DNA from: Sphingomicrobium marinum | Lineage (GTDB): Bacteria > Pseudomonadota > Alphaproteobacteria > Sphingomonadales > Sphingomonadaceae | Direction of reading: 5' to 3' | DNA: 64,000 bases | NCBI RefSeq assembly: GCF_026157105.1 | Contig: NZ_JANPVQ010000001.1 | Location: 2,163,501-2,227,500 of the forward strand | Part shown: positions 16,129 to 33,258 of the stretch, in pieces | Position numbering within the stretch: the stretch's first letter is position 1 | Layout of the letters: each line of letters begins with the position of its first letter | Notes under the pieces: generated by a model | Told to the model about the DNA's origin: nothing | Seen by the model: only the letters and a program-made list of their open reading frames with translations | The model's database searches: none | Made by a program: the position numbers and the translations under genes

Positions 16129-16214
16129 CTTAACGGCTGGCTAACAAGACCTTACGCGCGCTTTAACCCTGACTTTTAGGCGGGTCTTCGTCTTGTCCTG
16201 CGACAAGCATCGGC

Positions 16215-17150
16215 ATGATGAAGGTCAACCGTGCCCCCCATATTCTCGCCCTCGCTGCGGCCGCGACGCTGATCCCGGCTGCCGCCTCCGCACAGTCGGC
16301 GCCGAGCGTCGATCGCCATGCGCCCCCGCCGGCGCTGGCGATGTCTTCGGCACCCTCGCTAAAGGCGAGCGCCATCCTTGGCGGTAACGGATCGAGTTTG
16401 CAGGCGATCCTCGCCGGCCAGCAGGCGGCCACGCCATCCTATACGCAATATCGACCCATGGCGCCTGCCGCGACGAGCGCGCGGCCTTACGTCCGCGCCC
16501 ACCGCGCCGCGTTGCCCGCCCATGCCAGCCTGCCCAACCTGTTCGGTTCCGTGGCACTTTCGGTGTCGCGCACCCCCTTCGATCAGGGCTGGATGCGCGT
16601 CGCCAACGCCGGTGTCAGCGGCCGTGCCGCCGTCTATGCCCGCGATGCTGCGATCGATGGCGATCACGCCGCGATCGAGCGCATCAACCGCTATGTGAAT
16701 GCGCGCATCGCTTACACCAGCGACACCCGCCAATTCGGCCGCGAAGACAGGTGGATGCGTCCCGACGAGTCATTCGCTTCGGGTCGCGGCGATTGCGAAG
16801 ACTATGCGATTGCCAAGATGGCGATGCTCAAGGAAGCTGGTTTTGCTGCCGACAATCTCTACATCGTCGTGCTCAAGGACCTTGCCAACCTCAACGATCA
16901 TGCCGTCCTGGCCGTGCGCCACGAAGGTCGCTTCCTGATCCTTGATAACAGCCACGACCGTGTCGAGGACGCCAACACGATCAGCTTTTTCCGCCCGGTC
17001 ATGAGCTTTTCGTCGGCCGGTCGCTGGATCCACGGTTTCAACCGCACGCCCACGACCTACAGCTATCAGACGGCTTCGGCGTCGTGGCCGGACGGGCCGC
17101 GGCTCGCCATGGCGAGCGCCACCGCGCCGCGTTCAATCTTCGCGCAATAA
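16215..17150 (+). CDS. LapG-like transglutaminase-type periplasmic cysteine protease (BTLCP)
   Basis: A 311-residue protein with a signal peptide (residues 1-26, cut near AASAQS) and a C-terminal bacterial transglutaminase-like cysteine protease domain. The catalytic residues are visible: Cys in GRGDCEDYA, His in NDHAVLAV and Asp in LDNSHDR. In Pseudomonas the homologue LapG cuts the N-terminus of the giant adhesin LapA and frees it from its TolC anchor, under control of the c-di-GMP receptor LapD. Here the gene faces the stop of a type I secretion adaptor gene 3 nt away, and the same locus encodes a giant adhesin. A role as adhesin-releasing protease is inferred from fold and context. No LapD homologue is in the window. 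Confidence 0.85.
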   Translation: MMKVNRAPHILALAAAATLIPAAASAQSAPSVDRHAPPPALAMSSAPSLKASAILGGNGSSLQAILAGQQAATPSYTQYRPMAPAATSARPYVRAHRAALPAHASLPNLFGSVALSVSRTPFDQGWMRVANAGVSGRAAVYARDAAIDGDHAAIERINRYVNARIAYTSDTRQFGREDRWMRPDESFASGRGDCEDYAIAKMAMLKEAGFAADNLYIVVLKDLANLNDHAVLAVRHEGRFLILDNSHDRVEDANTISFFRPVMSFSSAGRWIHGFNRTPTTYSYQTASASWPDGPRLAMASATAPRSIFAQ

Positions 17151-17153
17151 GGT

Positions 17154-18440
17154 CTAGCGCTCGGTAAGCGCTTCGGCGCGTGCCTTCGTAATCGGCTTCA
17201 GGAGATAGGCCAGGATGCTCTTGCGTCCGGTGATGATCTGCGTGTCGGTCATCATGCCGGGCGTGATCTGGAGCCGCTCGTTGCCACGCGCAAGATAGCT
17301 GCGATCGGTTTCGACGATCACGTTGAAATAGGCCTCGCGTTCGACCTCGTCATACAGGCTGTCGGCCGAGATCTCGACGACCTTGCCCTTCAGTCCGCCA
17401 TAGATGGAAAAATCATAGGCGGTAACGGTCACCAGCGCTTCGTCCCCCACCGCGATGAAGCCGACATCGGAGGGTTTGACGCGCGTCTCGACGAGGAGCT
17501 TGTCGCCCACCGGCACGATTTCCATCACCTTCTCGCCCGCGCCAACAAACCCGCCGATAGTGGTGAGCTGAAGGTTATTCACCACGCCGTCGACGGGCGA
17601 CCGTAATTCGGTACGTGCCACGCGGCCTTCGGCACCGCGCAGGCTCTGTTCGTTGATATTGATGCGTTCCTGCACGCGGCTGCGTTCATCGAGCGCTTCC
17701 TGTCGGAAGGTCGCGCGCGCTTCATTGGCCTGTGCAATCGCCTCGTTTACAGCTGCGAGCGCACGCCCGCGCTGTTCGCGGGCGGCGGCGATGCGGCCTT
17801 CAAGGTCGATCACTTCGCGGCGCGCGTCATCCAAATCGGTCTGCGGCACGATTTGACGCTCGGCGAGCGGTTCGAGCCGCGAGACATTGGTGCGCGCGAG
17901 ACGAAGCGAACTGGTCAGGCTGTCGATCGTCGCGGCGGCCTCGGCGGCATCGCGGCGCGACTGTTCGGCGCGCGCATTCAAGGCGCTGACCTGGCTGCTT
18001 AGAGCCGAACGACGGGCCTGACTGACCGCGGCTTCATCGGCACACCCCGCGCCGGTGCACGCGAGCGAGCCGCCAGTGCCTTCGGCGCGAAGCCGCGCTT
18101 CACGCGCTTGCAGCGCGGTCGTTTCGGCTTCGATCTGGCCGAGCTCCGAGGTGCTTTGCGTATCGTCGAGGCGCGCCAACAGGTCCCCGGCCTTCACCTG
18201 CTGGCCCGAGCGCACCAGCAATTCCTCGATCACCGCGGGTTCCGATGCCTGGATCAGCTGGATGCGTCCCGACGGAATGACTTCGCCCTGCCCGCGCGTG
18301 ATTTCATCGACCTCGGCGATGCTGCCCCAGACAAGGAAGATGGCGAACACGCCCAGAACGGCGAAGATGATCTTCTTCGATCCGCTCATGGGCGGGCGCG
18401 ATACATCGTCGCGATCGGTGATGAAGGAAAAGGCGTTCAC
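17154..18440 (-). CDS. HlyD/LapC-type membrane fusion protein of a type I secretion system
   Basis: A 428-residue periplasmic adaptor. One transmembrane helix (KKIIFAVLGVFAIFLVWG) near residues 22-40 is followed by a biotinyl-lipoyl half (GEVIPSGRIQLIQA) and a long coiled-coil hairpin of about residues 120-285. The C-terminal barrel ends in PGMMTDTQIITGRKSIL, typical of AprE/LapC adaptors. It links the inner-membrane ABC exporter to TolC. The GTG at 18440 is chosen because GGAGG lies 8 nt upstream and it sits 1 nt after the stop of the hydrolase gene. Last gene of the adhesin operon. Confidence 0.9.
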   Translation of the reverse strand: MNAFSFITDRDDVSRPPMSGSKKIIFAVLGVFAIFLVWGSIAEVDEITRGQGEVIPSGRIQLIQASEPAVIEELLVRSGQQVKAGDLLARLDDTQSTSELGQIEAETTALQAREARLRAEGTGGSLACTGAGCADEAAVSQARRSALSSQVSALNARAEQSRRDAAEAAATIDSLTSSLRLARTNVSRLEPLAERQIVPQTDLDDARREVIDLEGRIAAAREQRGRALAAVNEAIAQANEARATFRQEALDERSRVQERININEQSLRGAEGRVARTELRSPVDGVVNNLQLTTIGGFVGAGEKVMEIVPVGDKLLVETRVKPSDVGFIAVGDEALVTVTAYDFSIYGGLKGKVVEISADSLYDEVEREAYFNVIVETDRSYLARGNERLQITPGMMTDTQIITGRKSILAYLLKPITKARAEALTER

Positions 18441-18441
18441 G

Positions 18442-19434
18442 TCACTGTCCTCCGCCAGGCAGCACCATGGCACTGCTGGCAATACGTTGTTCGGGCGCCT
18501 GGCGGGCGGTGATCTCGTCAGCCGCGCCCGGCGTCGCGACAGGATTGGGAATGTTGAGCGTCCAGCCCTTCGAGGTATCCAGATAGCCGCCGACATCGTT
18601 TTCGGCGCGATTGATGGGCGGACCCGCCGGCTTCGTCTCGGCGATCATCATTTCCTCGACCGGCGCCGGCTTGCCGAGGTAGCGCGTCGGGCGCAGTGCT
18701 GCCGGATCGTGTGGTTCGCCTGCATAGCGCTGGATGAATGCGGCGCGGCGACCCCACTGGCCCGGCCAGCGATAGAAGATGTGCAGCCCCGTCTTTTTCA
18801 CCTTGGTGAGCTTGGGCGCCCAATAGGGCGCGACATAGTCCGCATGATAATGCGTCGCCGTGCCGACCGACTGTTCGACCTTCCCCGCCAGCGCGTCCGC
18901 CGCGACCTGCTCGGCCGCTTTCCATGCCGCTGCGCCGGGTCGCCGCTCGAGCGAGCCATCGCAGGTAAAGCTGAACTGGCAGACCGGCTTTTTGGCGCCT
19001 TCGTAAACGACGCCGCAAACCGAGTTGGGATAAGCCGGGTGGCGCACGCGATTGAGCACGACCTGCGCGACCGCGCGGCGGCCCGCCAAGGGCTCGTAGC
19101 CCGCTTCGTAATAAATCGCCTGCGTGAGACACAGCTGGGCGCGGCGATAGTCGAGTCCGCTGGGTTGGCCGAAGGGGCGCGCCGCATCGAGCCCGCTACG
19201 ATCGATCGGCATCGAGGCATTGATAAGCTCGGCGCTTTCACCCGTGGCGCGATATTCGACCAGTTCTGCGCCAGTGGTCGCATCAACCAGCGCGGCGGTC
19301 TGCGACAACGGAATGCTTACCGCGGCCTGCGCTTTGGGCTGCTGCATTGCGACACCGACCAGCGCCATCAGCGCAGCGGCAAGCGCTGCGATCACCGCAA
19401 CCTGGACGCGTTTGAAAGTGAGGCGCTGGCTCAT
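18442..19434 (-). CDS. SleB/CwlJ-type cell wall hydrolase within the secretion operon
   Basis: A 330-residue protein with an N-terminal membrane anchor or signal (VAVIAALAAALMALVGVAM) and a Hydrolase_2 (PF07486, SleB/CwlJ) domain. The active-site segment reads AIYYEAGYEP with the catalytic Glu, followed by QVVLNRV and the later HYHADYV. These enzymes cleave peptidoglycan (glucosaminidase or lytic transglycosylase type). Its start overlaps the ABC exporter stop by 4 nt and its stop is 1 nt from the adaptor start, so it is a coupled member of the type I secretion operon. It may open the wall for TolC assembly or for anchoring the adhesin; that role is inference. Confidence 0.88.
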   Translation of the reverse strand: MSQRLTFKRVQVAVIAALAAALMALVGVAMQQPKAQAAVSIPLSQTAALVDATTGAELVEYRATGESAELINASMPIDRSGLDAARPFGQPSGLDYRRAQLCLTQAIYYEAGYEPLAGRRAVAQVVLNRVRHPAYPNSVCGVVYEGAKKPVCQFSFTCDGSLERRPGAAAWKAAEQVAADALAGKVEQSVGTATHYHADYVAPYWAPKLTKVKKTGLHIFYRWPGQWGRRAAFIQRYAGEPHDPAALRPTRYLGKPAPVEEMMIAETKPAGPPINRAENDVGGYLDTSKGWTLNIPNPVATPGAADEITARQAPEQRIASSAMVLPGGGQ

Positions 19435-21620
19435 TCGGGCCTCACCGTCACATTGCCCGTCGTCTGCTTGACCGGCGGCTTGCCCGCGCCGGCATTGGCG
19501 AGCGCATTCATCACCTCGTCGCGCGGGCCATCGGCAATGACCTTGCCCTTGTCGATGACGATCAGTCGATCGATGACCTTAAGCATCGATTTGCGGTGCG
19601 TGGACACGACGAGCGTCTGCTCCGGCGTCATCGCGGCCTGCAGCCGATCGATGAAATATTGTTCGGTCTGGGTGTCCATGTTGCCCGTCGGTTCATCGAG
19701 AAACAGCATCTTGGACGGGGCGACCAACGCGCGCGCCAGCACCAGCAAGGTACGCTGCCCGCCCGACAGGCGGCCGCCGCGTTCGCCGATGTCGAGATCG
19801 AAACCGGCTGCGCCCTGGCTGAGGAAAATGTCGGCGCCCGATTTCTTGACCGCATCGACCAGTTCTTCATCGCTCACCTGCGCCGCGCCCAGCATCAGGT
19901 TGTCGCGCACGGTGCCTGTGAACAGTTCGGCATCCTGCCCGACATAACGGAACGCTTCGCGAAGCTGGTGCGGGTGATATTGGCGGCTATCGAGCCCGTC
20001 GACCGTCATCACGCCTTCGCTTGGCGCATAGAGACCGCACAGCACACGGCCGAGCGTCGACTTGCCCGATGCAACGCGGCCGATAATACCGATCTTTTCG
20101 CCCGGGTTGATGGTGAAATTGAGCCCGTCGAGGCTATCGATCGCGGCGCCCGGATAACGGAAATGCAGGTCCTTCAACTCGATCCGGCCTTCGCGGATTT
20201 CGGGTACGACCGACCGCGTCGCCGATTGGCGTTCATCGGGCGCTTCCATCATTTCCTGAAGGCTGTCGAGCGTCGCCATCGCCTGCTTGCCGCGCGTCAT
20301 GAGCAGCGCCAACTGGCCGATTGGCGCCATGGCGCGACCGGCGATCATCACGATGGCGATGATACCGCCCATGGTGATCGCGCCAGCGTTGAACAGGAAG
20401 AAGCCGCCGATGATCAGCCCGACGGTCATTGCCTGCTGCGTCACCGATGCAAGGTTCACCGCCACCGCTGTCAGCCGGCGCATCTTTTCCTGCGTCGCCG
20501 CCGACATCGTGGCGAAACGACGCCAGCGGCCAAGCATCCGCCCTTCGGCGCGCGCCGCTTTTAGCGTTTCCACGCCGGCAATGCTTTCAACCAGCACGCT
20601 GTTCTGCAGCGAGGCGTCGGCCTGCGCATCGGTCGCAATGCGCCCCATGCCGCGGGTGATCGACAGGCCGACGATGACCATGATCGTGATGAAGACGATC
20701 GGCACCATGACCAGCCATCCGGCCAGCACCGCGATGAAGATCATGAAGATCCCCATGAAGGCGATATCGACCAGCAGCACGACGCTGGTCGAGGCAAAGA
20801 AATCGCGCACCTGCTCATATTCCGACACGCGGCGCGCAAAGGCGCCGGTCGAACCCTGGCGCTCGGCCATCGGCAGGTTCATGACCTTTTCGAAAATCTT
20901 TTGCGAATAGCGCGCATCGAGTTTGCGCCCGATTTCATCGACCAGCTGGCTACGCGCCAGTCTGAGGATGAAGTCGAAGACCAGTGCCAACGCCACGCCC
21001 AGCGCCAGCACCCAGAGCGAGCTGACGGTGTTGTTGGGAATGACGCGGTCGTAGACGTTCATGGTAAAGAGCGGCACCGCGAGCGCGAGCAGGTTGATCA
21101 CTAGCGCCGCGACGATGACCGGCCAGAACTGGCGGCGTGCTTTCCACACCTCCGACCAGAACCAGTGGGCGCGCTTTGCCTTGTCCCACGGACGCTCGCC
21201 CTCGCGCTCCTTGGTCGGATCGGGTTCGACGACGACCGCATTGCCGGTAAAATGTTCGGCCAGTTCGGTTGCCGGCACCCACTGCGTGCCTTCCATGCCA
21301 GGGGCATGGATGAGCGCATCGCCATCCTTGAGTTCAATGAGGACTGCCGCGCCACCTTCCAGTTGCAGGATGGCGGGAAGCTGCGCTTCCTTCCAGCCGC
21401 GCAGACGGCGCGACACGGGAAAGCCCCGCATCCCGACCTGGTCGAGCGCGGGTTCGATCTGGTGAAACGGGAGCCTGCCGTCTGCGTCGAGCGCCAGCCC
21501 GGCACGCAAAAGGACCGGCGCGGAAGGCCGGTCCTGCTCGCGGGCCACATAGGCCAGACAATCGAGGACGGAATCGATCTCGTTATGCGTGGCGCTTGCC
21601 AGCCAGTGATCCGAAGTCAA
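19431..21620 (-). CDS. Type I secretion ABC exporter (LapB-like) with degenerate C39-like domain
   Basis: A 729-residue exporter. Residues 1-130 form a C39-peptidase-like domain whose catalytic Cys is not seen, the non-cleaving docking domain of RTX-type exporters. The membrane domain spans about 165-430. The ATPase has Walker A GRVASGKST, signature LSGGQ, Walker B MLFLDEPTGN and the H-loop STHR. It should drive one-step export of the adjacent giant adhesin through the adaptor and TolC. The start is TTG at 21620 with GGGGACGG upstream. The ATG of the hydrolase overlaps its stop (ATGA). Confidence 0.93.
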   Translation of the reverse strand: MTSDHWLASATHNEIDSVLDCLAYVAREQDRPSAPVLLRAGLALDADGRLPFHQIEPALDQVGMRGFPVSRRLRGWKEAQLPAILQLEGGAAVLIELKDGDALIHAPGMEGTQWVPATELAEHFTGNAVVVEPDPTKEREGERPWDKAKRAHWFWSEVWKARRQFWPVIVAALVINLLALAVPLFTMNVYDRVIPNNTVSSLWVLALGVALALVFDFILRLARSQLVDEIGRKLDARYSQKIFEKVMNLPMAERQGSTGAFARRVSEYEQVRDFFASTSVVLLVDIAFMGIFMIFIAVLAGWLVMVPIVFITIMVIVGLSITRGMGRIATDAQADASLQNSVLVESIAGVETLKAARAEGRMLGRWRRFATMSAATQEKMRRLTAVAVNLASVTQQAMTVGLIIGGFFLFNAGAITMGGIIAIVMIAGRAMAPIGQLALLMTRGKQAMATLDSLQEMMEAPDERQSATRSVVPEIREGRIELKDLHFRYPGAAIDSLDGLNFTINPGEKIGIIGRVASGKSTLGRVLCGLYAPSEGVMTVDGLDSRQYHPHQLREAFRYVGQDAELFTGTVRDNLMLGAAQVSDEELVDAVKKSGADIFLSQGAAGFDLDIGERGGRLSGGQRTLLVLARALVAPSKMLFLDEPTGNMDTQTEQYFIDRLQAAMTPEQTLVVSTHRKSMLKVIDRLIVIDKGKVIADGPRDEVMNALANAGAGKPPVKQTTGNVTVRPE

Positions 21621-21636
21621 ATTCCGTCCCCATATA

Positions 21637-23157
21637 TTACATATCGTCCGAAGAACCGACCGAACTGGTCGAGTTGGCGCGCGTTTCCGCGGCCTCTTCG
21701 GGCGAATTGTGATTCTCTACCATTCCATCATAGCTCGAACCGATTTCGACGGGAGCGCCGACAATCATGCGTCCCGAACCGGTACGCTCGTCCTTCCAGC
21801 CATCGTAGACCGGGCCGACGCTATAATCGTCGCGCTCGTTCGAGTATGCGTGGCTCGACATTTCAAGACCCATCGCCTCGAGGAGGTTGTTGGTCGCGGC
21901 CAGCACGCGATACTGCGCGTAGAGCTGCGCCAGCTTCGACACTTCGAGCTGCGCCTGCACATTGGCGCGCGTGTTCTGCGCATCGAGCACGTCGAGCAGC
22001 GAACGGCGGCCCACGTTGAACTGCTCGCGGTACGACAGGAGCAAATCGTCCGAGACATTGCTCTGCTCTTGTAGCTGTTCGACCAGGCGGCCCTGGTTGG
22101 TGAGCCGGCTCCAGGCCGAGCGGACGGTTTCAACCGCTTCGCGCTGGCGCGAGAAGAGCAGTGCCTGCTGCTGGTTGGCGCGGGCACGCTGCTCGCGGAC
22201 GTTGGCGCGGTTGGCACCACCGTCGAACAGGTTCCAGCGCATCACGCCGCGGGCCATCAGGTCCGTGGTGTCGCCGGTGAAGCCGTCGATGTCGTGGCCG
22301 TAGCGCGCGCGACCTTCGACCGAGAAGGTCGGACCCATTTCGGCCTTGGCCTTCATCGTCAATTCGTTGGCCGCGGCAAGATCGGCGACCGCTTCTTCGA
22401 CCAGCGGATTGTTCTCCTTGGCAAGCATTTCGGCAGCATAGAGCGATTCGGGCATCGCCGCGGAAAGATCGGGCGGCATCGTGACATCACCGATCGGCAT
22501 ACCGGTCAGGCGCTGGAAGGTGATGGCCGCCGTATCGAGCTCTTCCTGAGCTTCGACCACGCGGGCTTCGGCTGCGCGATAGCGCTCCTGTGCCTGCTGC
22601 AGATCGGCGATCGAAATCGAATCCTGCTCGACACCGGCGCGCAGGTCGTCAGCGAGCATGCGGTGAAAGTTCGCATTGTCGACCTCGATCGCCACCAGAC
22701 GCTGCTGGAGGATATAATCGATGTAAGCGCGGCTGGTGTTCAGCGCGATGAATTCGCTGCGCTCTTCGATCCGCGCGGCCGCTGCATCGGTGCGCGCCGC
22801 CTGGTAGCGGATCTCCGCTTCGCGCGCGCCATTGTCCATGAGGAGCAAGTCGGCAATCGCCTGCGCTTCGATCGGGTAGAGCGTTTCATCCGCGATATCG
22901 AGGCTGCGACGGGTCGGGTTGCGAAGTTCGCGGATCCCGCCCGACACCTCGACCGAGAGGCGCGGATAATAGAGGCCTTCCGCCTGACGCAGTTCTTCGA
23001 ACGTGGCCTGCTTGTTATAATAGGCCTGGTGGATTTCAGGGTTGGTCTGCAACGCCTCCTGGATGGCGGTTTTCAGGTCAACCGCGCCGGCCGGCGTGGC
23101 CATCGCTGCGGCCGCGAGCACCGCTCCGGGAACGATCATCGTCCAGTGCTTCTTCAT
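21637..23157 (-). CDS. TolC-family outer membrane channel (LapE-like)
   Basis: A 506-residue TolC family protein with signal peptide (residues 1-27, ending PAGAVD) and the two outer membrane efflux repeats with long coiled coils. Tell-tale parts are LKTAIQEALQTNPEI near the N-terminus and LLSYREQFNVGRRSLLDVLDAQN in the second repeat, here quoted in pieces as FNVGRRSLLDVLD. The ATG at 23157 (MKKHW) is chosen over the upstream frame extension, which lacks a signal. It lies between the adhesin and exporter genes and should form the outer membrane pore, and in a Lap-like model the anchor for the adhesin. Confidence 0.92.
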   Translation of the reverse strand: MKKHWTMIVPGAVLAAAAMATPAGAVDLKTAIQEALQTNPEIHQAYYNKQATFEELRQAEGLYYPRLSVEVSGGIRELRNPTRRSLDIADETLYPIEAQAIADLLLMDNGAREAEIRYQAARTDAAAARIEERSEFIALNTSRAYIDYILQQRLVAIEVDNANFHRMLADDLRAGVEQDSISIADLQQAQERYRAAEARVVEAQEELDTAAITFQRLTGMPIGDVTMPPDLSAAMPESLYAAEMLAKENNPLVEEAVADLAAANELTMKAKAEMGPTFSVEGRARYGHDIDGFTGDTTDLMARGVMRWNLFDGGANRANVREQRARANQQQALLFSRQREAVETVRSAWSRLTNQGRLVEQLQEQSNVSDDLLLSYREQFNVGRRSLLDVLDAQNTRANVQAQLEVSKLAQLYAQYRVLAATNNLLEAMGLEMSSHAYSNERDDYSVGPVYDGWKDERTGSGRMIVGAPVEIGSSYDGMVENHNSPEEAAETRANSTSSVGSSDDM

Positions 23158-23192
23158 GTCATGCCCCTCTACTGGTCTTTCCGTGGTTGAGA

Positions 23193-23212
23193 CCCCCGCG
23201 TCCACACGGGGG
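23193..23212 (-). promoter_or_regulatory. Intercistronic stem-loop between adhesin and TolC genes
   Basis: On the transcribed strand CCCCCGTG-TGGA-CGCGGGGG: an 8-bp stem (one G-T pair) with a 4-nt loop, in the 75-nt gap between the adhesin stop and the tolC start. No T-run follows, so it is more likely a partial terminator, pause or mRNA stabiliser than a full terminator. Confidence 0.5.
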
Positions 23213-23232
23213 CCTGCCATTTCGTTCGATGC

Positions 23233-26200
23233 CTAAGCCGACATCACCATGTCGTGATGCAGCACCATTGCTTCCATCACCATGATATCCTGAGTCGCAA
23301 AGGTAAATCCACCCTCGAAACCCATGTTAAAGCTGGCGAAGTCTCCCAGCGGCGCAATCGCCGCCAGACCACCGTCGCCGAACAGGCCGCCTTCGCCAAG
23401 ATTGGCGAGGATGGCATCGACCGGATCCATGTCGCCGCCCATCAGGGCGTCGCTCAGGATGTTGCCGAGATCGTGGCCGAGACCCGCTTCGTTGGCAGCA
23501 AGCGCCGCCATCGCGTCGGCGCCCGGCATCGCGATCATGTCGTTGGCCGCGAAGACCGGGAATCCGGCATCGTTGCCTGCGACCGGCGCCATGTCATTCG
23601 CCAGCGGCGCAAAGTCCGGTTCCAGCATCGGCTGGATGGCGTCGAGCGAGCCAGCCTGCGGCAGCGCGGTGCCGCCAAGACCGCCGTCGAACACCGGATT
23701 GGCCGCGATGCCGAAGCCGCCCTCGATCCCCGGCAGGCCGAAATCGGCACCGTCGGTGATCGGCGTGACCTGCATGAAGCTGGCCGAAAGCGACTGGTCG
23801 AACATCGGCGTGTAGGCATCGAGCATCGGCGCCGAAGCGGTGGCGAAGCTGCCCGCCATCGCATAGTCCATCGACATGCCGGCGATCATCGCTCCGCCCA
23901 CCATCAGCGAGCTGTTGAGGCCCGACTGCTGGAGCGACAGGCCGTTGTCGTTGAGCGCGGTCTTGCTGAAGCTGGCCAGCGTGAGCGACCCCGTTGACAC
24001 CGACGCGTCGTCGATGGTGGTCGAGACGTTCTCATACGGCGGGCCGCTACCATCCTGGTCGACGACCGTGGTGACCGTGCCATCGGCGGTATCGCCATCG
24101 GCGTCGGTGTAGGTGACATCGAATTCCTGGATGATGTCGGTACCTGCACTTTCGGTGCCGATCGTGAAGACGCTAAGGTCGAACGGCTGACCGCTCACTC
24201 CCTGCACGATGATAGCGCTGAACTCCGCAGTAGTTTCGATGGCGTAAGTGTCACCCTGCTGGATGCCGCTGAACGTCACCGAACCATCGGCATTGCGCGT
24301 AGCGCTCGCACCGAAACCGATCGACGCCGTCTGGCCGACCATCAGAGTCGTGATATCCAGCGTGGCAGTTTGACCAGTGTTGTAATCAGTCACCGATACC
24401 GACGTGATCTGCACAAGGCTCTCACCCGGTCCAAGCCCGTCGACCGGGTAAGTGTCGGGCGCATCCGCCGGATCGTTGTCGGTGTCGATCGCATAGACCC
24501 GGAAGGTGGCCGTCTGGGCCTGGTTGCCCTGCACCTGCGTCACGAGCTGTTCGTAGGACGTCGTCTGCTGGCGCCCGGTAAACTGCAGACCGGTAGGAGT
24601 GGACGTCAGATCGGTAACGAACCCGATACGCAGGAATTCACCGACATTGATCGACTGGTTGTTCACACCGATACTGCCGTCGCCTTGCTTGCTGGTGTTG
24701 ACCGTACCGATCGTGTTGCCATCCGAACCGCGCGCAACCGCGCCCACCGGATCCCCGATCCCTATGCCGAGCGTGTCATTGTTACCCGCTTTGACATTGC
24801 CGAAGTCGCTAAAGGTGGTCGACGTTCCGTTGGTGAGGTCGCCGTTCACGTCGAAGTTATAGGTGCCGTCACCATTGAGCGTCACCGTGAAGCCGACATC
24901 GCCGGCAACGCCGGTGGGATCGGTCGTCGCGACGATCTGGCCGGTGCCGTCGCCGAACAGGTAAAGCTGCTGCCCTGCCAGGCCAACAAGATTACCATCG
25001 GTGTCCTGCGCCATCACACCATCGGTGATGTTGAACACGTAGGATCCCGGGAGGTCGGCACCGGTCGCGATATTAAGCGCGACATTCGAAACCGCCGGCT
25101 GATCGCCATCGAGCGAGACCGCAACGTCGGGCGCAAAGTCGCTCGGCGCATCGTCACCGAAGACAATCGTCAGTTCGGCGGGCGCGCTCTCTTCATTCTC
25201 GCTGTCGATCGCGGTGTATAGAAGTGCGATCGCATCGGCTACTTCGCCATCGTCCCCGCCATCGTGCAGGTAGTTCTGCAGCAGCGTGACGGTATACTCG
25301 CCAGTCGACTGGTCGATCACGACCGTGAAGACATCGCCGCGCGTCCCGCTGGTCGCGGTAAGCGTATTGCTGCCGCCATCCCAGCTATAGGTCAGCGTTT
25401 CGAGGCCGATGTCCTGGACCACGCCGTCCATCGCTGCAAAGCTGTAGGTCCCCGGCGCGTCGTTGCCGAAGGTGCCGCCAAACGAGCCCACGAAGACCGT
25501 CTCGTCATTGAGGCCGGCACCGCTGTCACCGACGTCGGCGTCGATATCGTCGACATTCGTCGAGTTGCCGGTACCAAAACCGTCATCATCGACTGCTGCC
25601 GAAACGTTGAACGCCGTCGGGTTGCTGTCGTCTTCCAGGTTGATCGTCACCGTCGCGATCGACTTGTCGCCATCGCCGTCGGTGATCTCGTACTGGAACT
25701 GGACCGAACCCTCTTCATTTGCGGCCGGCGAGTAGGTGAAGGTCCCATCGCCGTTATAGACAAGGTTGCCCGCACCGGTCAGCGAACCACCGACCAGCGC
25801 CACGTCGACATCGGCAACGCCATCGGCACCCTTTACGTCATTGGCCAGAACGTCGACCGTCACATCAGTGTTTTCGCCGTTCTGGTCGGCCTGATTGACC
25901 GTGTCGTTGTTGGCGGTGGGAACGTCATCGATGACATCGATCGTGATCGTCCCCTGCACGGTGTTGCCGTTGGCATCGGTGGCTTCGTAGGTAAAGACAT
26001 CGACCGCCGGAACGTTGTTTTCGCCATTATTGGCAGTCGTGCCATCGACTGGCGACGTCAGCGTGTAGCTGTAGGTGCCGTCCGAATTGAGCGTCAACGT
26101 GCCGTTCGATCCTACGTTCGAACCGACGACCGCATAATTTACAGCATCGGCAACCATGAGCGTACCGCCCGCGGTTTCGCTATTGGTGCCCCCGGCAGAG

Positions 26201-29200
26201 CCGATACCGTCAAGGCCGTCTTCGTCGACCGAGATCGTGTCGTTGTCCGCGACCAGCGTCACGTCAGCCAGGTTGATCGTGATCGTCGTGGTCGACGTGT
26301 CGCCGTCACCATCGGTGATGGTGTAGGTGAACGTGTCGGTTTCGTCGCCGCTGATCGCATCGGCGGTCGACTGATAGGTGTAGCTACCATCCGCGTTAAT
26401 CGTGAGCGAGCCGTAGGCCCCCACGATCGGCGAGCCGACATTTCCCGACACCGGGCCGGCAACGTTGCCGGCGACCACGCCGGTCACTTCGTTATCGACC
26501 ACATCGGCGAAGTCGGCACCGATCGTGTCGTTGTCGACCACGTTGCCCATGACCGAGGCACCCTCGGTCACGTTGGCGCTGTCCACGACCGCGGTCGGGA
26601 CGTCGTCGACGATGTCGATCGTGATGGTCGACGTCGTCGTGTTACCGTCCATGTCGGTCACCTCATAGGTGAAGGTCTCGACATTGTTTTCGGTGGTCGC
26701 GCCATTATCGGCATCCGCGCCATCGACCGGCGCATTAAGCGTGTAGACCCACGTGCCGTCGGGGTTGATGACCAGCGTACCGTTTGAACCGGTACCCGAA
26801 CCAACGAGCGCGAAGCTGTTGCCACCGTTGCCGCCCGATACATTGTCGTTGAGGTTCCCCGATGCCTGCTCGGGCGCGTTGGGGGTCGAGCCAATCGCCA
26901 GCTCGGCTTCGTTGACCGAGGCGTCCTCATTGTTGGCGGCCAGGTTGCTGTCGCCGACATTGATGGTCAGCGTGACCGTGGAGGTGTCGCCATCGCCATC
27001 GGTGATGGTGTAGACGAAGACATCCTGCACATCGCCGACATTGGGATCGGCTTCATAGGTGTAGCTGCCGTCCGCATTGAGCGTCAGCGTGCCGTAGGTG
27101 CCCGCCACCGCGACACCGACATCGCCCGACACCGGGTTCGAGATGTCGTTACCCGCCGCAACGCCCGTCACCGCACCGCCCGGCGCAGCGCCATCGGCGC
27201 CGAGCACGTCGTTGGGCAGAACGTTACCCGAGGTATCTGCGCCTTCGGTGACGCTATCGACATCCGCCGTCGCCGTCGGAACATCGTCGCGCACGTCGAT
27301 GGTGATTGTGCCCTGGACGGTGTTGCCGTCGGCATCGGTCGCCACATAGGTGAAGACATCGACGCCCGGAACGACATTCTCGTCATTATCGGCGGTCAAG
27401 CCGTCGACCGGCGTGGTCAGCGTATAGCTGTAGGTGCCGTCATTGTTGAGCGTGAGCGTGCCGTTCGAACCGACGTTCGAGCCGACCAGCGCGTACTCTA
27501 CCGCCCCGGCAACCATCAGCGTACCGCCTGCGGTTTCGCTGTTGGTGCCACCGGCCGAACCAATGCCATCGAGACCGTCTTCGTCGACCGTGATCGTATC
27601 GTTGTCCGCGACCAGCGTCACGTCATCGACATTGATATCGATCGTGGCGGTCGAAGTGTCGCCGTCACCATCGGTGATGGTGTAGGTGAACGTGTCGGTC
27701 GCACCCGGCGCGGCCACCGCATCCGGATCCGATTCATAGGTATAGCTGCCGTCCGCATTGATCGTCAGCGTGCCGTAAAGGCCTGCAACGCTCGCGCCGA
27801 CATTACCCGATACCGGACCGGCCACATTGCCCGCAGCAACGCCGGTGACTTCATTGTCGGCCACTTCCGCGCCATCGGCGCCGATCGTATCGTTATCGAC
27901 GACGTTGCCCATGACCGAGGCGCCCTCGGTCACGCTGGCGCTGTCGACGACCGCAGTCGGGACGTCGTCGACGATGTCGATCGTGATGGTCGACGTCGTC
28001 GTGTTGCCGTCAGCGTCGGTCACCTCGTAGGTGAAGGTCTCGACATTGTTGACGACGTTGTTGCCATTATCGGCATCCGCGCCATCGACCGGCGAATTGA
28101 GCGTGTAGACCCAGGTGCCGTCGGGGTTGATGACCAGCGTACCGTTCGACCCGGTGCCCGAACCCACGAGCGCAAAGCTGTTGCCGCCAGCGCCGCCCGA
28201 TACATTGTCATTGAGATTGCCCGATGCCGTTTCCGGCGCATCCGGTGCCGAGCCTTCCGCCAACTGGGCCTCGAAGACCGCCGCATCCTCGTTGGTGGCC
28301 GCCAGGCCTGAATCCGCGACATCGATGGTCAGGGTGACCGTCGACGTGTCGCCGTCACCGTCGGTGATGGTATAGACGAAGACGTCCTGCACAGCGCCGA
28401 CATTGGGATCGGCTTCGTAGGTGTAGCTGCCATTGGCGTTAAGCGTGAGCGTCCCGTAGGTGCCCGCCACCGCGACGCCGACATCGCCCGAAACGGGGTT
28501 CGACGTATCGCTGCCCGCGGCAACACCCGTCACCGGGCCGCCAGGCGCAGCGCCATCGGCGCCGATCACATCGTTGGTGAAGACATTGCCGCCGACGGAA
28601 CCGCCTTCGGACACGTTGTTCATGTCGAGCGTGGCGGTGGGCACGTCGTCGACGATCTCGACGTCGAGACTACCGGTAGCCATGTCGACGTCCTGATCGG
28701 TGACCTTGACCTCGAACGAACGGATGATGGGATCTTCGCCCGCATTGCCGTGGAGCAGCGCGTTGGCGTCGAGTTCATATTCGTAGATGAAGGTGCCGCC
28801 GATTACCAAGCCGTTGAGGTCGGTATCGGGGATGAAGTCGGTGATACGAAGCTCGCCGTAATCATCCGCGATCGTCTTGGCGCCGAGGAAGACGCCGTTC
28901 TCGATGATCAGGACACCGCCAACCCAGACGTCATCTACGCCATCGGCGGCTTCGAACGAGAAGCTGTTGCCATCGACCAGCGATTCCGGGGTCGTGTCCG
29001 AACCCGCGGGCAGATCGTCTTCGTCGACGCTGAGCTCGGGGCCCTGGCCGTCGAGACCGTTGAGCACGACGGGATCGTTCTCACCATCCATGATGATGGT
29101 CAGGAACGCCGGCGAGGAATCGCCGTCATTGTCGAGCAGCGTGTAGCTGAATTCTTCGACAAGCGATTCGCCGTCGGTCAGCGCATTGAGCGCATCGATG

Positions 29201-32200
29201 CCTTCACCCGACAGCAGATACTCGTAGCTGCCATCGGCATTGAGCGTGAGCACACCGTACAGGCCGACAAAGAAGCCCGGATTGCCCACCTGGGCGCCGT
29301 CGGCGCCAAGCGTGTCCGCGCCCGGACCGGCGACACCGCCATCGGTGCCATCGCCCGTGATGACATTGCCCGTCGTGGTGGTGGGACCACCTTCGAAAAT
29401 ATCGCTGTCGACATCGTTGTTCGCGGTCGGGACGTCGTTGACGATCTCGATCAGAAAGACGCCGCTCGTCGACGAACCGTCTTCGTCGGTCAGGTTGACC
29501 GGCACCGATTCGAACGGATCACTCGGCGGATTGGGGCCATTGTCGAGCGAATTGTCCTCGAGCACGAAGTTCCCCAGCAGCGTTCCGCCGATGATCGTGC
29601 CGTCAGGCGCTGTCAGCGGGATGAAGCCGGTCACCGTGATCGTGCCCGAAGGCGTCGCGATCGTCGCGCCCGCGCCCACGAAGACGCCGTCTTCGATGAC
29701 AAGTACGCCGCCCATCGTGAGGTCGTCGACGCCATCGGGCGCTTCGAATGCGAAGTTCCACAGTTGCGTCAGGAAGGAAGGCGACGGGTTCGAGCCATCC
29801 GGCAGGTTTGATTCGTCCACGAACACGTTGGGCGCTGAGCCTTCGACACCGTTGAGAACGACGGGATCGTCCTTACCGTTCATGATGATGGTCAGCTGCG
29901 CGGGATCGCTATCGAGATCGCCATCGACGAGGGTGTAGTTGAACTGGTCGACCAGCGTTTCGCCATCGGTCAGCGTTTCGAGAAGCGCCACGCCATCCTG
30001 GCTCATCACGTAGTTATAGCTACCATCGGCATTGAGCGTCAGCGTGCCGTACAGGCCGACATAGACGCCCGGATTACCGACCTCGGCGCCGTCGGCACCC
30101 GGCGTGTCCGCGCCGACGCCATTGAGGCCGCCATTGGTGCCCTCGCCAGTGATGACGTTGCCATCGGTGGAGGTGGCGCCGCCTTCGACGATGTCGCCGT
30201 CGACATCGTCTTCGGCCGTCGGCGTGTCGTCGAGGATTTCGATCGACAGGCTGGTGCTTGCCACATCGCCGTCGCTGTCGGTCAGCACGACCGAGAAGTC
30301 GTCGCTTTCGACGCCAACAAGATCTTGCGTATTGGTCGTCAGTTCATAGCTGTAGGTGTAGCCGGCCGTCGGATTGCCGATGACGGTCAGCGTGCCGTAA
30401 AGGCCCGGGACCACACCGCCATTGGAAACGTTGACGCCGCCGATGACCAGCGAGGCCACGGTGTCATTACCCGTATCGAATTCGATCGTACCCGCGGCAA
30501 ATTCGTCGTTCGAGGCGGCGTTGCTGCCTTCGTCGTCGCCATTGGGCGGGCCATCGAGCGCGGCTTCGTCCACCACGGTGTCCGACCCTTCGGCGATAGA
30601 CACAGAGGGCGTCGAGTCCGGCAGCAGCGTGATGGTGACCGTGGCAACCGACGTGTCACCGTCACCGTCGGTTATCTCGTACTGGAAGGTAACGACGCCT
30701 TCTTCGCCCGGAACCGGGCCGTAGGTAAAGGTGCCATTGTTGTTATAGGTCAGCGTGCCGGGGCCGCTCAGCGTACCCGGGACAACTGCGATTCCGCTGA
30801 TCAGGTTGACGCCATCGGCGCCCGCCACATCATTGGCGAACACATCCACAGTGATATTGGCATCTTCCGCCGCCTGGTTGGCGCTGTCGTTGTTGGCCTT
30901 GGGAAGATCATCAATGATTTCGATCGACAGGACCGTGTCGGCGGTGTCGCCATCGCTGTCGGTCAGGACGACGTTGAAGTCATCCGTCTCGGCCACGCCA
31001 TCGACGTCTTCAAGGTCGGTCGTGAGTTCGTAGCTATATGTATAACCGTCGGTCGGGTTACCGCTGATCGTCAGCGTGCCATAGGCACCTGGCACCGAGC
31101 CGCCATTGGTGACATCGATGCCATTGATGACGAGCGAGCCGACGCTGTCATTGCCCGTGTCGAAGGTCAGCGCGCCTTCGCCCACTTCGCTGTTGGAAGC
31201 CGCATCCGAGCCATCGGGGTTGAGACCGGCTTCATTCACAACCGTGTCCGAACCCTCGACGATCGAAATGCTCGGCGTCGAATCGGGCAGGAGTTCGATC
31301 GTGACCGTGGCGACCGACGGGCTGCCGTCGCTATCGGTGATCCGATAATCGAAGGTGACCGTGCCTTCTTCGCCCGGGACCGGGTCGTAGGTGAAGGTGC
31401 CATCGCCATTATAGGTGAGCGTTCCTGCGCCCACGAGCGACCCTGCAACAAGCTCGACGCCCGTCGCCAGATCGACGCCGTCGGCGCCCGGCGTATCGTT
31501 GGCGAAGATATCGACAGTGATGTTCGCATCTTCGCTCGGCTGCACGGCTGAATCATCGCGCGCGATGGGCTCGTCGTCGATGATGTCGATGACGACGACA
31601 TCGGTGGCGGTGTCGCCGTCCACATCGGTGACCGTCACGGTGAAGGTGACCGTTGTAGTGGTGCCCGACGTATTGTCGGTCAGCGTGAAGTTATACTCGA
31701 TGATGTTCGCATCGGGATCGTAGCTGATGATCGTGATGATCCCGCCTTCGATCGGGATGACCTGGCCGGCGCCCGTTACCGGTGTGCCGTTGATCGCGAC
31801 GACATTAACGCCGTCGCCGTCCACCCAGCGGATGACGCCGGTCACATGTTCGGTCGGATCACTGTCATTGTCCGGGTCGCCATCGGCGATTTCGCCCGAA
31901 CCCGGGGTCTCGCCATTGCGCGGCGGAAGACCACCCTCGTCGACCGTGTTGCCGGCGTTGGGATCGGGGATGATGTCGATATCGACGCCCGCATCTTCGA
32001 TCACGATGGTGAGCGTGGCCGTGGACGTGTCACCATCGCCGTCGGTCAGCGTGTAGGTGAAGACGTCTTCGACGCCGCCCGGCGAGGCCGGATCACGGAC
32101 ATAGGTGTAGCTACCGTCCGCGGCGATGGTCAGCGTTCCGTACGCACCCACAATCTCCACATTGCCGTCCCCGATCGCCACACTCGCACCGCCGGCAGCA

Positions 32201-33258
32201 ATCGCAGTGAGTACCGCACCATCAGCGCCCGGCGTATCCGCGCCGGCAGCGCCCGACGTCGTACCCACGCCGGTGAAGACGTTGCCGTCTTCGGGGCCGT
32301 ACGTACGCGCCGCAATCGTATCGGTATCATCGCGTGCGGACGGACCGTCGTCGGTGATGTTGATGGTCAGGTTGGCCGTAGCGCTATCGCCATCGACATC
32401 GGTCACCGTGACCGAGAAGATGTCTTGCACGGAATCGCCCGACGTATTGTCGGTCAGCGTATAGCGGAAACCGATCGCACCGGGGCTGATCGAGGTAATC
32501 GTCAGCGTTCCGAACTGGCCCTGGATGACCTGGCCGACCGCACTGATGACAACGCCGTTGACCACAAGCCCGTCGACCGCAACCACGTTGGGGCTGTCCG
32601 GCGAGGAATAAACGAATGTTCCCGAAACGCTCTCGCTGTCGGCTGCCGCGTTGGACCCTGCAGGCTCGCCGTTACGTGCGGGAAGCCCCGCCTCGTCGAC
32701 ACCTGCCGTGGCGTCGCGCGCGCCGGCAGGATTGTCGGGGGTCTCGATGACGATGTCGGGCTCGTTCTCGAGAAAATAGCCCGGCTCTTCCTGCTGCTCG
32801 AGAGGCCGGAAAAGTTCGGTCGGCGGCAGCAGGTCGCCCAGCTCCTGCGCAGGGCCAAGGCCCGGCACGATGACGGCAAAGTTGCCGCCGCTGGAATCGT
32901 TGTTGGGATCGTTGTCGTCGCCGGGACCGGCGGGCGGATCAGCCTGGATCAGCAGCGCGGCGACCGTGGTGGGCGGGATCACCGCTTCGCCGATAACAAG
33001 CTGAGGTACAAAAAGAGCGCCATTGACGATGACCATCTGGCCGCCATCGGGCAGCGGGACGACAAGATCCGTACCGACACGGACGATATCGCCGGCATTC
33101 ACACCCGCAGGAAGATTGACCACGCCATCGGGGCCGACTTCGACCCGGATCGCGTCCGGCCGTACCGTTACCTTGGCCGGCGTTGCTTCGTTCGAAACGT
33201 CGGTATCGACGTCCTGGCCGCTGTCTTGGGCCCCGCTTGCTTCAAAATCGTTGCGCAT
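23233..33258 (-). CDS. Giant repeat adhesin (VCBS/cadherin-like, type I secreted), 3341 aa
   Basis: A 3341-residue acidic surface protein. Residues of about 30-112 form an N-terminal module (GDIVRVGTDLVVPLPDGG, GALFVPQL, TVAALL) like LapA-type retention modules, with a di-alanine at 100-101. A Pro/Asp/Glu linker follows, then about 2800 residues of beta-sandwich repeats of VCBS, tandem-95 and T1SS-143/DUF5801 type. Recurrent cores are YGTLTLNADGSYTY, YTITDGDGDTST and DDVPTA. The Asp-rich turns suggest calcium binding. The last 265 residues are Met-rich with no RTX nonapeptides. I saw no Cys. There is no Sec signal; export should be by the operon's ABC-HlyD-TolC system. The ATG at 33258 has AAGGGTGGG upstream; the frame extends to 33306 without support. 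Confidence 0.9.
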   Translation of the reverse strand: MRNDFEASGAQDSGQDVDTDVSNEATPAKVTVRPDAIRVEVGPDGVVNLPAGVNAGDIVRVGTDLVVPLPDGGQMVIVNGALFVPQLVIGEAVIPPTTVAALLIQADPPAGPGDDNDPNNDSSGGNFAVIVPGLGPAQELGDLLPPTELFRPLEQQEEPGYFLENEPDIVIETPDNPAGARDATAGVDEAGLPARNGEPAGSNAAADSESVSGTFVYSSPDSPNVVAVDGLVVNGVVISAVGQVIQGQFGTLTITSISPGAIGFRYTLTDNTSGDSVQDIFSVTVTDVDGDSATANLTINITDDGPSARDDTDTIAARTYGPEDGNVFTGVGTTSGAAGADTPGADGAVLTAIAAGGASVAIGDGNVEIVGAYGTLTIAADGSYTYVRDPASPGGVEDVFTYTLTDGDGDTSTATLTIVIEDAGVDIDIIPDPNAGNTVDEGGLPPRNGETPGSGEIADGDPDNDSDPTEHVTGVIRWVDGDGVNVVAINGTPVTGAGQVIPIEGGIITIISYDPDANIIEYNFTLTDNTSGTTTTVTFTVTVTDVDGDTATDVVVIDIIDDEPIARDDSAVQPSEDANITVDIFANDTPGADGVDLATGVELVAGSLVGAGTLTYNGDGTFTYDPVPGEEGTVTFDYRITDSDGSPSVATVTIELLPDSTPSISIVEGSDTVVNEAGLNPDGSDAASNSEVGEGALTFDTGNDSVGSLVINGIDVTNGGSVPGAYGTLTISGNPTDGYTYSYELTTDLEDVDGVAETDDFNVVLTDSDGDTADTVLSIEIIDDLPKANNDSANQAAEDANITVDVFANDVAGADGVNLISGIAVVPGTLSGPGTLTYNNNGTFTYGPVPGEEGVVTFQYEITDGDGDTSVATVTITLLPDSTPSVSIAEGSDTVVDEAALDGPPNGDDEGSNAASNDEFAAGTIEFDTGNDTVASLVIGGVNVSNGGVVPGLYGTLTVIGNPTAGYTYSYELTTNTQDLVGVESDDFSVVLTDSDGDVASTSLSIEILDDTPTAEDDVDGDIVEGGATSTDGNVITGEGTNGGLNGVGADTPGADGAEVGNPGVYVGLYGTLTLNADGSYNYVMSQDGVALLETLTDGETLVDQFNYTLVDGDLDSDPAQLTIIMNGKDDPVVLNGVEGSAPNVFVDESNLPDGSNPSPSFLTQLWNFAFEAPDGVDDLTMGGVLVIEDGVFVGAGATIATPSGTITVTGFIPLTAPDGTIIGGTLLGNFVLEDNSLDNGPNPPSDPFESVPVNLTDEDGSSTSGVFLIEIVNDVPTANNDVDSDIFEGGPTTTTGNVITGDGTDGGVAGPGADTLGADGAQVGNPGFFVGLYGVLTLNADGSYEYLLSGEGIDALNALTDGESLVEEFSYTLLDNDGDSSPAFLTIIMDGENDPVVLNGLDGQGPELSVDEDDLPAGSDTTPESLVDGNSFSFEAADGVDDVWVGGVLIIENGVFLGAKTIADDYGELRITDFIPDTDLNGLVIGGTFIYEYELDANALLHGNAGEDPIIRSFEVKVTDQDVDMATGSLDVEIVDDVPTATLDMNNVSEGGSVGGNVFTNDVIGADGAAPGGPVTGVAAGSDTSNPVSGDVGVAVAGTYGTLTLNANGSYTYEADPNVGAVQDVFVYTITDGDGDTSTVTLTIDVADSGLAATNEDAAVFEAQLAEGSAPDAPETASGNLNDNVSGGAGGNSFALVGSGTGSNGTLVINPDGTWVYTLNSPVDGADADNGNNVVNNVETFTYEVTDADGNTTTSTITIDIVDDVPTAVVDSASVTEGASVMGNVVDNDTIGADGAEVADNEVTGVAAGNVAGPVSGNVGASVAGLYGTLTINADGSYTYESDPDAVAAPGATDTFTYTITDGDGDTSTATIDINVDDVTLVADNDTITVDEDGLDGIGSAGGTNSETAGGTLMVAGAVEYALVGSNVGSNGTLTLNNDGTYSYTLTTPVDGLTADNDENVVPGVDVFTYVATDADGNTVQGTITIDVRDDVPTATADVDSVTEGADTSGNVLPNDVLGADGAAPGGAVTGVAAGNDISNPVSGDVGVAVAGTYGTLTLNADGSYTYEADPNVGDVQDVFVYTITDGDGDTSTVTLTINVGDSNLAANNEDASVNEAELAIGSTPNAPEQASGNLNDNVSGGNGGNSFALVGSGTGSNGTLVINPDGTWVYTLNAPVDGADADNGATTENNVETFTYEVTDMDGNTTTSTITIDIVDDVPTAVVDSANVTEGASVMGNVVDNDTIGADFADVVDNEVTGVVAGNVAGPVSGNVGSPIVGAYGSLTINADGSYTYQSTADAISGDETDTFTYTITDGDGDTSTTTITINLADVTLVADNDTISVDEDGLDGIGSAGGTNSETAGGTLMVADAVNYAVVGSNVGSNGTLTLNSDGTYSYTLTSPVDGTTANNGENNVPAVDVFTYEATDANGNTVQGTITIDVIDDVPTANNDTVNQADQNGENTDVTVDVLANDVKGADGVADVDVALVGGSLTGAGNLVYNGDGTFTYSPAANEEGSVQFQYEITDGDGDKSIATVTINLEDDSNPTAFNVSAAVDDDGFGTGNSTNVDDIDADVGDSGAGLNDETVFVGSFGGTFGNDAPGTYSFAAMDGVVQDIGLETLTYSWDGGSNTLTATSGTRGDVFTVVIDQSTGEYTVTLLQNYLHDGGDDGEVADAIALLYTAIDSENEESAPAELTIVFGDDAPSDFAPDVAVSLDGDQPAVSNVALNIATGADLPGSYVFNITDGVMAQDTDGNLVGLAGQQLYLFGDGTGQIVATTDPTGVAGDVGFTVTLNGDGTYNFDVNGDLTNGTSTTFSDFGNVKAGNNDTLGIGIGDPVGAVARGSDGNTIGTVNTSKQGDGSIGVNNQSINVGEFLRIGFVTDLTSTPTGLQFTGRQQTTSYEQLVTQVQGNQAQTATFRVYAIDTDNDPADAPDTYPVDGLGPGESLVQITSVSVTDYNTGQTATLDITTLMVGQTASIGFGASATRNADGSVTFSGIQQGDTYAIETTAEFSAIIVQGVSGQPFDLSVFTIGTESAGTDIIQEFDVTYTDADGDTADGTVTTVVDQDGSGPPYENVSTTIDDASVSTGSLTLASFSKTALNDNGLSLQQSGLNSSLMVGGAMIAGMSMDYAMAGSFATASAPMLDAYTPMFDQSLSASFMQVTPITDGADFGLPGIEGGFGIAANPVFDGGLGGTALPQAGSLDAIQPMLEPDFAPLANDMAPVAGNDAGFPVFAANDMIAMPGADAMAALAANEAGLGHDLGNILSDALMGGDMDPVDAILANLGEGGLFGDGGLAAIAPLGDFASFNMGFEGGFTFATQDIMVMEAMVLHHDMVMSA
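25930..28650 (-). repeat. Two tandem 454-residue supra-repeats in the adhesin
   Basis: Within the adhesin, a four-domain block is duplicated head to tail: copy 1 at 27289-28650 (1362 bp, 454 codons), copy 2 at 25930-27288 (1359 bp, 453 codons). Each begins at a DDVPTA codon set and holds four VCBS-like domains in the order C-D-A-B, distinguished by VFVYTITDGDGDTST, ETFTYEVTD, DTFTYTITDGDGDT and VDVFTY. Nucleotide identity is high over long stretches, for example around 26536-26600 and 27898-27960, pointing to recent duplication or conversion. Confidence 0.85.
32956..32961 (-). other. Di-alanine candidate protease site in the adhesin retention module
   Basis: Codons GCC GCG for Ala100-Ala101 in the context TTVAALL, at nearly the same distance from the N-terminus as the Ala108-Ala109 LapG site of Pseudomonas LapA. 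The flanking residues differ from the classic TAAG, so this is a candidate only. Confidence 0.35.

Follow-up and report, generated by a model that had tools for sequence, protein, structure and literature searches.

A candidate sphingomonad variant of the Lap adhesin system, with a SleB-like hydrolase gene in its operon and no detectable LapD

In Pseudomonas, the LapA-LapG system controls attachment through cyclic di-GMP (c-di-GMP) and LapD. What, then, is the nature of a locus in which a LapG-type protease gene lies next to the genes for a giant adhesin and its type I exporter, a peptidoglycan hydrolase gene sits among the latter, and LapD is missing? Such a locus is present in a 64,000-nt stretch of the genome of Sphingomicrobium marinum (2.24 Mb, 99.99% complete), henceforth the window, to whose numbering the positions below refer. 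We propose, with a probability of roughly 0.6, that it is a Lap two-step adhesin system in a sphingomonad version, free of LapD and with a dedicated SleB-like hydrolase. Since LapD was searched for and not found, the locus is not a complete member of the Lap group; that it works like a Lap system has, in our estimate, a good probability.

The original prediction described a six-gene Lap-like set, i.e. a LapG-type protease next to an operon of adhesin, TolC, ABC exporter, SleB-like protein and HlyD, and all six open reading frames (ORFs) proved to be open where they had been placed and to belong to the families named. On the minus strand the genes run in the order giant repeat adhesin (23233..33258; 3341 aa counted from the ATG at 33258), TolC-family outer-membrane channel (21637..23220), type I secretion ABC permease/ATPase of the LssB/LapB type with a C39-like domain (19431..21620), SleB-like Hydrolase_2 peptidoglycan hydrolase (18442..19434; 330 aa) and HlyD-type periplasmic adaptor (17154..18440), and the protease gene on the plus strand (16215..17150; 311 aa) is convergent with them. 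The ABC and SleB frames share 4 bases, and HlyD has a GTG start at 18440, 1 base past the SleB stop, which suits an operon (a longer ATG frame extends to 18596); this packing makes it likely that the run from the adhesin to HlyD forms a single operon and transcript. The further claim that a peptidoglycan hydrolase is built into the secretion operon thus holds, as the SleB-like gene is wedged between ABC and HlyD. The parts of a Lap-type exporter (LapB-type ABC protein with a C39-like domain, HlyD-type adaptor and TolC-type channel) are all present. The ABC protein scores 793 bits against TIGR03375 (cut-off 693), and its residues 12-135 match Peptidase_C39 (27.7 bits, cut-off 22); judging from the family and from a reading of the sequence, this domain appears to be catalytically dead. 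HlyD against TIGR01843 and the TolC gene product against OEP both score above the cut-off, and TIGR01844 remains below it in the exporter set (197.8 vs. 225).

The protease is a member of the BTLCP family (Pfam Peptidase_C93, E-value 3e-21). It also matches the NCBIfam LapG model with a clear E-value (1.4e-21), yet its 76.7 bits do not reach the curated cut-off of 320 bits, which identifies it, at the level of sequence, as a homologous but divergent relative of LapG. Its N-terminus resembles a signal peptide (judged by eye), and it possesses the catalytic C-H-D residues as well as the calcium-type D-C-E-D box. The box, the H and the D are invariant in all 39 aligned LapG sequences, comprising the window protein and 38 of 48 homolog hits (ten were dropped against redundancy, including L099, a weak hit that is not beside a type I secretion system). 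The closest solved structures are the LapG chains 4u65 and 4fgo, with which these residues align. No second Peptidase_C93 protein was found in the window genome, so lapG is the sole copy; many relatives from the genus (G100, G110, G119, G140, G236 and others) carry an extra, weaker BTLCP protein (~115-147 bits) elsewhere in the genome, which the window genome does not have.

A failure of the protease and the adhesin operon to co-occur in relatives had been named beforehand as the outcome that would speak against the prediction; we found the opposite. In a sample of 246 genomes of the order, the profile of the adhesin N-terminus matched 53 genomes from 14 of the 71 genera, all inside the window's family. 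The LapG profile matched 132 genomes at E <0.001, 55 of them with more than 200 bits; only the latter, strong matches were counted as this protease, and the weaker BTLCP matches were not. All 53 adhesin genomes carry a strong LapG (Fisher p 5e-52, with related genomes treated as independent). The two genomes with a strong LapG and no adhesin match are G166, in which the contig begins within the adhesin, and G080, with a decayed operon in which SleB, HlyD and LapG persist and the adhesin, TolC and an intact ABC gene were not found beside them. Within the window's genus, G175 and G189 have neither the adhesin nor a strong LapG, and in G179 the protease is still kept, 1.29 Mb away from the adhesin operon.

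The gene order, whose comparison across Sphingomonadales had been proposed together with the prediction, is well conserved. A first census was drawn from named records and took the 80 best loci retrieved with SleB, among which 51 SleB genes adjoin HlyD or ABC. LapG is present, and always convergent, in 45 of the 46 SleB loci with room on the right, and ABC and TolC are each present in 37 of the 38 with room on the left. A second census was centred on LapG (55 loci), hence not selected on SleB, and recovered HlyD in 52, SleB in 51, ABC in 50, TolC in 49 and a gene for an OmpA-domain protein in 27 loci. LapG is convergent with HlyD in 52/52 loci having both; in the three LapG loci without HlyD, LapG lies apart from the operon (G179 and G222) or at a contig end (G146). 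In 29 of the 38 named loci with room on the left, the OmpA-domain gene, of the peptidoglycan-binding type, separates the adhesin from TolC (Pfam was run on five), e.g. L024 5565-6260 and L049 5560-6261. The window lacks it, as do all 17 census loci from the window's genus and, among loci labelled Sphingopyxis, L030 and L032-L036; L051 and L058, under the same label, have it. One aberrant locus (L059 4832-10936, from the same genome as G161, L127 and L144) has the N-terminal half of the adhesin fused in frame to SleB, with the C-terminal half, TolC and ABC apparently deleted and LapG and HlyD kept. We considered this fusion as proof of an interaction between adhesin and SleB and rejected it, an in-frame deletion looking likelier.

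If the protease is to act in the manner of LapG, the adhesin should offer a retention module followed by a cleavage site. The AlphaFold2 model of the window adhesin N-terminus (overall predicted TM score 0.49) contains a confident beta domain and a helix at residues 84-91 (together 32950..33162, minus strand; block-mean predicted local distance difference test 93-96), a putative retention module, and then a low-confidence linker with the site. The same layout is described for D. vulgaris adhesins in PMC13090378, where the rule given for LapG/DvhG substrates consists of a targeting helix, a DP motif and [T/A/P]AAG. The 31 adhesin N-termini that we aligned (omitting L103, which is the window itself, and L059, a duplicate of L127) share the beta region, the helix (consensus NLAALLIG), a consensus E-P-Q-PAAG after the helix and an invariant SSGG. 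Of the 53 adhesin genomes, 39 have PAAG at the site and 6 have PEAG; TDAG, PAGG, PASG, PAAE and PAVI occur in one each, and PPAGPG in the window; 2/53 adhesins have no recognisable site at the position expected for LapG. Our first site pattern failed on six adhesins, which were then read individually; one of these has SSGNNF in place of SSGGNF.

No LapA-type retention family, for which NCBIfam includes a model, is among the matches to the adhesin N-terminus. Its best family is BapA_N, weak and under the cut-off, and the BapA prefix-like model NF033677 matches 24 of the 31 N-termini at E up to 5 (best 3.3e-4; window 16.4 vs. cut-off 35). Assignment of the beta domain to a known fold was dropped, as the searches returned weak matches only (best E 2.2 for the N-terminus alignment against solved chains), and so was a conserved C-terminal secretion signal, 37 aligned adhesin tails showing little conservation. 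Beyond its ATG start and N-terminal module, the window adhesin matches Pfam families of Big_9/bacterial Ig and cadherin-type repeats, with no RTX family among the matches at E 0.001. Outside the family the N-terminus is rare: 5/289 genomes of the class had it, the window's own among them, and the remaining four matches are weak, with PAAG sites visible by eye in two. In the genus relatives L111, L112, L114, L118 and L124 an Ig-like stretch of the open frame precedes the beta domain, and the retention-type domain may therefore not be the extreme N-terminus.

The absence of LapD, which the original prediction had noted for the locus, extends to the genome and to the sampled genomes of the order. 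The LapD_MoxY_N family gave 0 matches in the window genome and none above the cut-off in the 246 genomes (a single sub-cutoff match is in G212, which has no adhesin). The search itself works, as strong matches occur elsewhere in the phylum: 71 of 249 genomes were positive, many at E <1e-20, the strong ones all outside the window's class, inside which matches are weak only (best 3.4e-10). LapD-like HAMP/GGDEF/EAL proteins encoded elsewhere in the genome had also been suggested as a target. The 11 EAL and 10 GGDEF matches of the window genome represent 13 distinct proteins, and among the ten scanned with Pfam (the other three are short frames of 188 to 367 aa) none has the domain set of LapD. 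Two of the ten combine CHASE2 with EAL (L022 667-3102 and L007 1444-3702; helices present, one with a sub-cutoff GGDEF) and are candidate envelope c-di-GMP sensors, as far as domain composition tells. HD_5 (HD-GYP) had no match in the window genome, and the same search was positive in 4/14 control genomes; a Pfam scan of the operon revealed no dCache/HD-GYP receptor gene, dCache itself not having been searched for. In two census loci a response-regulator/LuxR-type gene lies between HlyD and LapG (L023 12122-12901, by Pfam; L030 12163-12978, by sequence), and five census loci have a gap of 1.3-1.4 kb at this place.

The SleB-like protein scores 93.2 bits against Hydrolase_2 (cut-off 27) and aligns with the SleB structures 4f55 and 4fet. 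Residue E110, the glutamate of YYEA, is invariant across 30 aligned SleB rows and is presumably the catalytic residue. The model of the protein has an N-terminal hydrophobic helix (residues 3-28) and a low-confidence C-terminal tail, in which most SleB copies of the operon type bear the motif GGxxDxxKxWxxxIP (in the window GGYLDTSKGWTLNIP, 18547..18591, minus strand). A tight version of the motif was found in 27/51 linked copies, and a looser one in 50/51 linked copies but in only 35/51 of the LapG census, where the window's genus and L141 escaped it. The final pattern, widened after inspection of the tails, finds 51/51 SleB proteins of the LapG census, a figure that is therefore partly fitted, and 50/51 of the first set, in which the single miss (L096) is a sequence containing runs of N; scored with the same widened pattern, unlinked copies give 0/64. 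The latter comprise 36 copies from the SleB search behind the first census, most of them in records labelled as Caulobacterales or relatives of these, together with 28 copies from the family of the window (from 30 loci of 58 matches, minus two operon-linked ones; two further Hydrolase_2 genes of the window genome are outside this set). One unlinked copy (L176) adjoins a divergent HlyD-type gene, and the motif is absent from it. From its position and its tail, the operon SleB looks like a dedicated component of the secretion machine, and the motif may serve to dock it there.

How would the protease be timed without LapD? The 86-base gap 5' of lapG contains two TTAAN7TTAA elements resembling CtrA boxes, with 1 mismatch each (16130..16166, plus strand). 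With at most one mismatch, TTAA-N7-TTAA is present 5' of lapG in 28/55 loci (1.7 expected from shuffles) and at 11/1342 control ORF starts; starts were taken from stop-to-stop frames, in which a TAA stop may supply part of a TTAA half-site, for the controls and lapG alike. TTTA-N7-TTTA is found in 17 of the 55 regions, and TTAACC in 40, as opposed to 5 for its reverse complement. The frequency of the box together with this strand bias makes a conserved, directional element before lapG well supported, and its resemblance suggests a CtrA box. The whole window contains 4 box matches (1.82 expected; 10/100 shuffles reach 4), all before lapG or the adhesin; 0.002 of shuffles do as well as the lapG gap and 0.078 as well as the adhesin gap. 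The box also occurs in 18/31 adhesin upstream regions (5.6 expected from shuffles), but we make no claim of CtrA boxes there, as other spacings reach 13 to 23 of 31 and the adhesin gap of the window by itself is unremarkable. In Caulobacter, HvyA is a BTLCP protein whose promoter is bound and activated by CtrA (PMC4241560), and CtrA pathways occur in Sphingomonas (PMC8921679).

The mechanism that we envisage is as follows. The ABC-HlyD-TolC exporter would thread the giant adhesin outward until its N-terminal beta domain, staying in the periplasm, plugs the TolC channel, and the adhesin would thereby be retained on the surface. The convergent LapG-type protease would cut just past the beta domain and helix and free the adhesin, with the timing of release set by the supply of protease, possibly linked to CtrA, or by an unrecognised sensor. 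The SleB-like enzyme probably opens the peptidoglycan locally, for assembly or for lasting occupancy of the trans-envelope conduit. In its fullest form, i.e. a type I system with its own peptidoglycan enzyme recruited by a C-terminal motif, combined with a LapD-free LapG switch timed by CtrA-type protease synthesis, this scheme is offered tentatively, and we regard it as doubtful.

Comparison with known systems delimits what is shared. With the Lap system of Pseudomonas fluorescens (LapA, LapB/C/E, LapG, LapD) the locus has in common a giant adhesin, a LapB-type exporter, a calcium-type protease of the LapG family and, in most sphingomonad relatives, the succession of N-terminal domain, helix and [T/A/P]AAG-type site. 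It differs in the lack of LapD, of a match to the LapA-type N-terminal model and of an RTX Pfam match, in the SleB gene and, in many loci, an OmpA-domain gene within the operon, and in the convergent protease gene. The Dvh system of Desulfovibrio vulgaris (DvhA, DvhG, DvhD) likewise shows Lap logic outside Gammaproteobacteria, with a divergent LapG relative, a beta-domain retention segment, a helix and the same cleavage consensus; its receptor DvhD, in contrast, is a dCache/PAS/HD-GYP protein encoded beside the protease (PMC13090378), and here we found neither an HD_5 match nor a receptor gene in the operon. HvyA of Caulobacter is an alphaproteobacterial periplasmic BTLCP protein too, but it blocks capsulation in G1 cells and its gene lies in a capsule export locus (PMC4241560), the present one opposite an adhesin secretion operon.

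Precedents for the hydrolase come from other types of secretion. VirB1 is a peptidoglycan enzyme of type IV secretion, and TagX of type VI and EssH of type VIIb secretion are likewise described as peptidoglycan enzymes tied to a secretion machine. Within type I secretion, the SPI-4 SiiE system exports a giant adhesin and has an accessory that associates with peptidoglycan; its SiiA and SiiB form an ion channel-like pair, not a SleB-type hydrolase. The literature matches listed in our searches, as far as titles and abstract openings go, gave no account of this locus or of a dedicated type I hydrolase, and in the accessible text of a type I secretion review (PMC8277102) the two mentions of "hydrolase" both concern FtsEX-PcsB.

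Several observations weigh against our interpretation. LapD, a usual component of Lap systems, was found neither in the organism's own genome nor above the cut-off in the 246 genomes of its order. The window adhesin reads ADPPAGPG (32920..32943, minus strand) where most relatives have E-P-x-PAAG, the LapG consensus, and as it lacks the dialanine, its cleavage by its own LapG is uncertain in this strain. A genus relative, G234 (L210 8733-10216), has no SleB match, with ABC and HlyD ~200 bases apart, and retains the adhesin N-terminus, the exporter and the protease, so SleB is not strictly required. As for CtrA, other spacings are also frequent 5' of lapG (N8 in 19 and N9 in 24 of 55 loci), with N7 the best and the N8 and N9 matches mostly in loci also having N7. 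On the other side, the prediction of a sphingomonad variant of periplasmically controlled surface anchoring gains support from the co-occurrence in 53/53 genomes, the PAAG site in 39/53 and the record of 0/246 for LapD.

Other explanations can be set against these data. The protease could be controlled by c-di-GMP through a receptor unrelated to LapD, e.g. a CHASE2-EAL protein, comparable to the dCache/HD-GYP protein of D. vulgaris. DvhD provides a published case of such an unrelated receptor (PMC13090378), and the 13 EAL/GGDEF proteins of the window genome, with the two CHASE2-EAL proteins among them, offer material for one; both CHASE2-EAL genes, however, lie away from the operon, the EAL signatures of their products are intact by motif, unlike those of a dead receptor, and HD_5 is without a match, so that we consider this explanation rather improbable. 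It is unlikely, too, that the protease acts as a constitutive enzyme that processes the adhesin, to mature or shed it, in the course of secretion, with no regulated anchoring at all: the lack of LapD and of a regulator gene in the window operon would suit such one-way processing, but the TTAACC element conserved before lapG (40/55) points to regulated synthesis, as does the response-regulator/LuxR-type gene next to lapG in L023 and L030. Finally, the operon SleB could be an ordinary cell-wall housekeeping gene located there by chance. Hydrolase_2 is common (at least one in 25/25 family genomes) and G234 keeps the remaining operon without it; against this stand the presence of SleB in 51/52 LapG-HlyD loci, the tail motif in 51/51 operon copies vs. 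0/64 unlinked ones, and the tight packing between ABC and HlyD with its 4-base overlap in the window, which together make coincidence very unlikely in our view.

Control of giant adhesins of the Lap type is best known from Gammaproteobacteria and one sulfate reducer. If the locus is indeed a LapD-free sphingomonad variant of this system with a SleB of its own, a large environmental group would run the cut-and-release logic on a different input, which raises the question of what holds a LapG protease in check when LapD is missing. Type I secretion would also gain a candidate dedicated cell-wall enzyme, of a kind known from other secretion systems, whose motif lends itself to mutation.
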